This document shows, one piece after another, positions 23,581-23,750 of a DNA stretch of 64,000 bases. The notes beneath the pieces were generated by a model that had not been told where the DNA came from, searched no databases, and was given only the letters and a program-made list of their open reading frames with translations. Numbering within the stretch: the first letter of the stretch is position 1; every line of letters begins with the position of its first letter. This DNA is from Methanococcoides sp. EBM-47 (lineage in GTDB: Archaea; Halobacteriota; Methanosarcinia; Methanosarcinales; Methanosarcinaceae). The stretch covers positions 123,342-187,341 of the forward strand of contig MPPA01000052.1 in the NCBI GenBank assembly GCA_001896725.1, in the 5' to 3' direction. The position numbers were made by a program, and so were the translations under genes.

Positions 23581-23593
23581 ACCGCCACGATAT

Positions 23594-23604
23594 CTATATA
23601 AAAG
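23594..23604 (+). promoter_or_regulatory. TATA box of the tRNA-Ser gene
   Basis: CTATATAAAAG centred about 34 bases upstream of the first base of the mature tRNA, the expected place for an archaeal TATA element, and flanked downstream by an A-rich stretch. Confidence 0.6.
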
Positions 23605-23633: not shown

Positions 23634-23750
23634 GCCGAGGTGGCAGAGCGGACCAATCCAACGGAACAAAATGCCCAGGAGTCTATATGCGATCGGCTCG
23701 AGACCGGTTTCCCCTGACGGGGTGCTTGGGTTCGAATCCCAACCTCGGCG
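23634..23750 (+). tRNA. tRNA-Ser(CGA) with a D-loop insertion/intron
   Basis: Acceptor stem GCCGAGG (23634-23640) pairs with CCTCGGC (23743-23749), discriminator G at 23750. D-stem GCA (23643-23645) pairs with TGC (23688-23690). Anticodon stem ATCGG/CCGGT encloses loop CTCGAGA, anticodon CGA, so serine (UCG). A type II variable arm TCCCC-TGAC-GGGGT follows, then T-stem TTGGG/CCCAA with loop TTCGAAT. CCA is not encoded. The D-loop is 42 nt long instead of 11; removing 31 nt restores a normal 86-nt tRNA-Ser. There is no room for a canonical anticodon-loop intron, since that loop is exactly seven bases. Confidence 0.93.
23656..23686 (+). other. Probable non-canonical tRNA intron (31 nt) with bulge-helix-bulge motif
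   Basis: The flanks form a bulge-helix-bulge: central four-pair helix GGAC (23650-23653) with GTCT (23681-23684, one G-U), three-base bulges CAA (23654-23656) and ATA (23685-23687), and an inner helix TCC (23657-23659) with GGA (23678-23680). Symmetric cleavage in the bulges removes 31 nt and leaves an 11-nt D-loop GAGCGGACCAA (or ...CCTA). The exact cut position inside the bulge is inferred. The outer helix is weak, so it would be a relaxed form. Confidence 0.72.

Follow-up and report, generated by a model that had tools for sequence, protein, structure and literature searches.

The tRNA-Ser(CGA) gene in the window (the whole stretch of 64,000 nucleotides analyzed here) has a D-loop of 42 nt, which falls to 11 nt once 31 nt are removed, and raises the question of whether the surplus is an intron spliced by the endonuclease EndA and how it came to lie there. 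We propose, with a probability of about 0.92, that the gene is functional, present in single copy and interrupted by an EndA-spliced intron, which would have been gained near the base of the class Methanosarcinia and lost precisely at least twice, and whose host gene would have been displaced in presumed Methanosarcina. This reading draws on the gene, the splicing motif, its conservation, the compensatory changes, the exact intron-minus orthologues and the type of EndA.

The Rfam tRNA model RF00005 (gathering score 29) covers exactly the interval of the gene and assigns the surplus bases to the D-loop (Table 1). ARAGORN detected no tRNA in the window when introns were disallowed, and with the intron option it called tRNA-Ser(CGA) but set the intron at position 33. 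Reading the stems directly, we found 7/7 pairs in the acceptor stem, five pairs each in the anticodon stem and the T-stem, and the pairs G10-C, C11-G and A12-U in the D-stem, with the insert at D-loop position 21/22; intron removal leaves an 86-nt type II tRNA-Ser of the same form as the intron-minus orthologues described below. The identity, position, 31-nt length and 86-nt product given in the earlier note were upheld by the Rfam match and the stems, and its figures for the D-loop before and after removal by direct reading. The anticodon loop has 7 nt, hence the intron is non-canonical, as had been claimed, and not of the canonical 37/38 kind. Boxes resembling CGAYA.CT.T.TAA, putative promoters by their consensus likeness, also precede the gene in several related genera.

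The genome (2.18 Mb, 53 contigs) gave 42 tRNA matches, and the Ser tRNA genes detected were GCT, GGA, TGA and one CGA, that of the window. A second intact Ser(CGA), which according to the earlier note would have made this gene a pseudogene, is ruled out by this single detection, no other copy being found among the tRNA matches of the Rfam model and ARAGORN. Locus L049 (G000:C51:69943-70032, minus strand), labeled "unknown" by ARAGORN with the anticodon letters tcga, is family-wide with spans of about 90-118 nt; it was rejected as a second Ser(CGA) and fits a tRNA-Arg(TCG) with a short anticodon-loop intron.

Table 1. Features of the tRNA-Ser(CGA) gene and its precursor, in window coordinates.
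Feature	Position	Strand	Basis or remark
tRNA-Ser(CGA) gene with D-loop intron, 117 nt	23634..23750	+	Rfam RF00005, 41.6 bits
Exon 1, 22 nt, tRNA positions 1-21 (count skips/adds D-loop positions)	23634..23655	+	Motif-based splice site, matches intron-minus orthologues
Intron, 31 nt, AUCCAACGGAACAAAAUGCCCAGGAGUCUAU	23656..23686	+	
Exon 2, 64 nt, tRNA position 22 to discriminator base G73, no encoded CCA	23687..23750	+	
Central helix, 5' strand GGAC (exon)	23650..23653	+	Partner 23681-23684; 86/86 distinct homologues
5' bulge CAA; inferred cut 23655/23656	23654..23656	+	3-nt bulge in 86/86 homologues
Inner helix, 5' strand UCC	23657..23659	+	Partner 23678-23680; homologues vary on both sides
Inner helix, 3' strand GGA	23678..23680	+	
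Central helix, 3' strand GUCU (intron)	23681..23684	+	GUCU/GUCC/GUUC in homologues, all pair with GGAC
3' open loop AUA; inferred cut 23686/23687	23685..23687	+	NNA in 86/86; no in-register outer helix
Anticodon CGA, 7-nt loop CUCGAGA	23699..23701	+	
Promoter-like box cgatatctatataaaag, BRE/TATA-like, about 30-46 nt upstream of tRNA	23588..23604	+	Consensus resemblance

The motif was compared in 86 distinct sequences, each running from exon 1 to the anticodon loop, from 119 genomes. In all 86, GGAC of exon 1 pairs over 4 bp with GUCU, GUCC or GUUC of the intron (GGAC/GUYY, with one G-U pair in the window gene), a 5' bulge of 3 nt adjoins this central helix, and the 3' triplet is NNA. The inner helix likewise had 3 or more contiguous pairs in 86/86, while shuffling the inner sequences yielded such a helix in 4.5 of the 86 on average and in 12 at most; therefore the inner pairing is not due to chance. 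Moreover, inner pairs 1, 2 and 3 have each changed on both sides (UA to CG, CG to UA, and CG to UA or GC, respectively). Intron length ranges from 17 to 47 nt across the homologues, exon 2 always starts with A, and the motif-based sites always give the spliced form GGAC-N-A-A-Y-GCG in the insert-bearing genes. The shortest intron (17 nt, hairpin UCC-AACG-GGA) was observed in GoM-Arc1 type loci L115 and L119.

Position 16 is a C in 86/86 and the 3' triplet is always followed by C or U, so that no outer helix forms in register in any of these sequences; in the window gene C16 lies opposite U55, the 3-nt AUA is left unclosed, and the D-stem resumes only past an internal loop. The motif is therefore of the relaxed HBh'/BHL type as defined previously (PMC8707768, PMC6379350), not a strict bulge-helix-bulge (hBHBh'). 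The earlier note had described a bulge-helix-bulge with two 3-nt bulges and a 4-bp GGAC/GTCT helix, of which the helix and the 5' bulge CAA stand and the closed 3' bulge does not; the outer helix that it called weak is absent in register throughout. When the isolated precursor of the window gene was folded without constraint, the minimum (-42.9 kcal/mol) was a different structure, and the cloverleaf with the splicing motif came to -40.5 kcal/mol (2.4 higher), which speaks against the splicing motif. For some members of family f7, fold prediction also yields a continuous helix in competition with the motif.

We scanned 186 genomes of the order, and 192 genomes of the class with completeness of at least 80%, for a pattern made of exon 1, an intron of any kind and the anticodon loop. 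The two scans found the insert in 119 genomes; it is not peculiar to the present one. The order has 81 carriers in the 186-genome scan and one more in the class scan (genera g1, g3-g7, g9, g13 and g14 of family f1, family f2 and family f4), with contigs named Methanolobus, Methanococcoides, Methanohalophilus, Methanosalsum, Methanohalobium and Methanomethylovorans, as well as ANME-2 and ANME-3 type archaea and GoM-Arc1/Argoarchaeum. In the sister family f7 (Methanothrix-like), 37/42 genomes carry the insert, and one named contig of this type belongs to a Methanothrix MAG. Absence from close relatives with evidence of sequencing error, which the earlier note had held to tell against an intron, was not what we found: the insert is present in 6/6 genomes of the host genus, and a DNA similarity search of 60 relatives found it in most genera. 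Genes identical or nearly identical to that of the window are present on contigs named Methanomethylovorans and place the host in that genus. The reversed-pattern control matched 0 genomes in the order scan and 1 in the class scan, and the exact pattern run over about 85,000 species returned only Methanosarcinales-type contigs and that same Methanothrix MAG, besides three unrelated bacterial matches. The insert is thus a conserved feature of most Methanosarcinia except presumed Methanosarcina and two ANME-like families. Outside the class, the matches listed were only intron-minus orthologues or chance matches, and tRNAs with diverged exons would escape the pattern.

Some copies are irregular. 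The tRNA-Ser(CGA) copies L113, L127 and L123, on MAG contigs, give way to unrelated sequence within the anticodon arm, beyond it or in the T-arm, and may be either integration events or assembly joins. One Methanomethylovorans MAG has two copies with different flanks (L078 and L105, on contigs C217 and C235 of G001), which may reflect either a duplication or an assembly mixture.

Insert-free orthologues define the ends of the insert. A tRNA free of the insert, mostly GAGCGGACTAACGCGG, occurs in family f3 (14 genomes) and in family f5 (31 genomes), where two genomes have a more diverged, likewise insert-free tRNA; the class scan also found an insert-free orthologue in f6, and among the matches listed outside the class such orthologues occur in families f10, f11, f16, f19, f20 and f27. 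This intron-minus form, GGAC-N-A-A-Y-GCG, is exactly the product predicted from the motif-based splice sites, and therefore the insert and the motif agree on one junction, with one ambiguous A.

Whether the intron was gained once is a separate question. The deep branches of the EndA tree stay unresolved, so independent gains are conceivable, and insertions made separately at one site in Methanosarcinales and in the Methanothrix-like family would agree with the strong internal differences of the f7 introns and with the lack of the intron in f6 and in families outside the class; the likeness of the central helix is moreover forced, because the GGAC of the exon dictates its 3' strand. Against this, the position is identical to the nucleotide and the relaxed motif is the same in both groups, and UAAUCCAACGG is common to f1, f2 and partly f4, with UAAUCC or UAAUC shared by some f7 members. 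We regard separate insertions as unlikely, at perhaps one chance in four, and prefer a single ancient gain.

That the insert might stay in the mature tRNA, unspliced, as an enlarged and structured D-loop, would be in keeping with an inner hairpin that is stable in many species and with a motif that has no outer helix of the strict kind. However, the intron-minus orthologues miss exactly the segment bounded by the splicing motif, and the 4-bp helix, the 3-nt bulge and NNA are kept in 86/86 while the hairpin varies freely in length and sequence; it is therefore the splice-site geometry that is kept, not the hairpin, and we consider retention very improbable.

In genera g8 (presumed Methanosarcina, 31 genomes), g12 and g2 no true match to the orthologue pattern was found, and those of their members that were examined have another Ser(CGA) without an intron, which seems to have displaced the intron-bearing gene in presumed Methanosarcina and related genera. 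Such intronless genes (GCCCAGGT.GTCTAG...CTCGAAA and similar) are L168-L170, L172 and L176 in presumed Methanosarcina and g12, and L161 and L162 in g2; among the Ser tRNAs of the present genome none is a clear donor of the presumed-Methanosarcina gene (identity at most 70%). Genera g10 and g11 (e.g. G014, G015 and G028) gave no Ser(CGA) by pattern or DNA similarity, and their small genomes may have lost this tRNA altogether. The absence from g10 and g11, together with the Ser(UGA) gene encoded in the genome, could suggest that the window gene is a pseudogene or a remnant the cell can do without, its UCG codons being served by tRNA-Ser(UGA), which could decode them through wobble. Yet the exon stems are undamaged and conserved throughout 119 genomes from many genera, the intron evolves by compensatory change, a promoter-like box is common to related genera, and presumed Methanosarcina, where the gene is gone, has another Ser(CGA) in its place; the chance that the gene is defunct appears slighter still than that of retention. 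As for an error of sequencing or assembly, or contamination during binning, the window does sit in a draft assembly of 53 contigs, but the insert recurs with small differences in every genome sampled from the genus, as well as in isolates of Methanolobus, Methanohalophilus and Methanococcoides, independent genomes that rule out an assembly error and make this explanation negligible.

The presence of an EndA gene in the genome supports the proposal of the earlier note that EndA is the likely processing enzyme. There is one such gene (358 aa, two PF01974 domains), a single two-domain gene is also found in 24/24 other genomes tested, carriers and non-carriers alike, and neither a separate beta subunit nor a three-unit fusion was detected here or in those 24 genomes. 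In the PDB, 1r0v and 2gjw, both of the A. fulgidus alpha'2 enzyme, are nearest to it, and the crenarchaea-specific loop is missing from Methanosarcinia EndAs where they are aligned with the engineered 3p1y chimera, which has this loop. Judged by sequence, the EndA here is a homodimeric alpha'2 enzyme without the crenarchaeal loop. Published views differ: two reviews restrict efficient processing of relaxed motifs to (alpha-beta)2, epsilon2 or loop-bearing EndA (PMC6379350, PMC4033280), whereas according to another paper homodimeric EndA cleaves BHL-like motifs as well (PMC8707768). Provided that splicing occurs, the tRNA-Ser(CGA) case favours homodimers acting on relaxed motifs. Korarchaeum has been named as the sole archaeon combining an alpha2 EndA with noncanonical introns (PMC4033280), and the other alpha4/alpha2 euryarchaea have been described with canonical strict-BHB introns only (PMC4090602).

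We infer how the precursor is cut and joined, and in what order gain and loss took place, as follows. In the precursor the GGAC of the exon would pair with the GUCU of the intron, with the CAA bulge and the UCC/GGA helix on the 5' side and the open AUA on the 3' side; alpha'2 EndA would cut after nucleotide 2 of CAA and nucleotide 2 of AUA, and the archaeal tRNA ligase would join the exons into the 86-nt tRNA. The intron would first have appeared near the base of Methanosarcinia, and at least two ANME-like families (f3 and f5) would since have lost it precisely; in presumed Methanosarcina and related genera another Ser(CGA) gene would have taken the place of the host gene. It is reasonably likely that a relaxed intron has persisted from near the base of the class onward alongside an alpha'2 EndA without a specificity loop as the only detected splicing endonuclease.

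If this is true, the rule tying noncanonical introns to (alpha-beta)2, epsilon2 or loop-bearing enzymes fails, and relaxed introns are substrates of alpha'2 EndA in vivo. A class-wide relaxed D-loop intron together with a loop-free alpha'2 EndA would contradict two reviews (PMC4033280, PMC4090602), and cultured organisms are available as a test; the orthologues that lack exactly the intron, together with the gene displacement in presumed Methanosarcina, would moreover make a compact case for tRNA intron loss. D-loop introns are already known in crenarchaea and Methanopyrus (PMC4307357, PMC3695527). A description of the Methanosarcinia tRNA-Ser(CGA) D-loop intron was not found in the open-access literature searched, and as far as that literature extends, the distribution and the enzyme pairing appear to be new. 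A possible cause of the oversight is that the Methanosarcina model genomes seem to be without the intron.

Several known systems invite comparison. The 673 noncanonical introns reported by tRNAscan-SE 2.0 in 217 archaeal genomes (PMC8450103) are of the same general class and may include some of the present genes, the text passages of that paper naming neither this intron nor the clade. Three thermophilic euryarchaeal methanogens with noncanonical introns, not named in the text (PMC3218864), might include a Methanothrix. Sulfolobus tokodaii tRNA-Glu and Aeropyrum pernix tRNA-Thr also have a BHB-like motif in the D-arm (PMC4307357), with cleavage at the predicted sites demonstrated experimentally for the S. 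tokodaii pair (PMC4307357), but these introns belong to crenarchaeal EndA and to other tRNAs than tRNA-Ser(CGA). Methanopyrus kandleri tRNA-Glu likewise has a euryarchaeal D-loop intron that is a predicted EndA substrate, and its precursors were seen by RNA-seq (PMC3695527); however, it is the second intron of that tRNA and is paired with an (alpha-beta)2 EndA (PMC6379350), whereas here it is the sole intron, in a tRNA-Ser, with an alpha'2 EndA. Within the present genome, the elongator tRNA-Met (L042) has a canonical 37/38 intron and shares with tRNA-Ser(CGA) the 4-bp helix, the 3-nt bulges, the rule of cutting after the second bulge nucleotide and AUA on the 3' side; the two differ in the 3' bulge, which is closed by the anticodon stem in tRNA-Met (strict hBHBh', by eye) and by no helix in tRNA-Ser(CGA).
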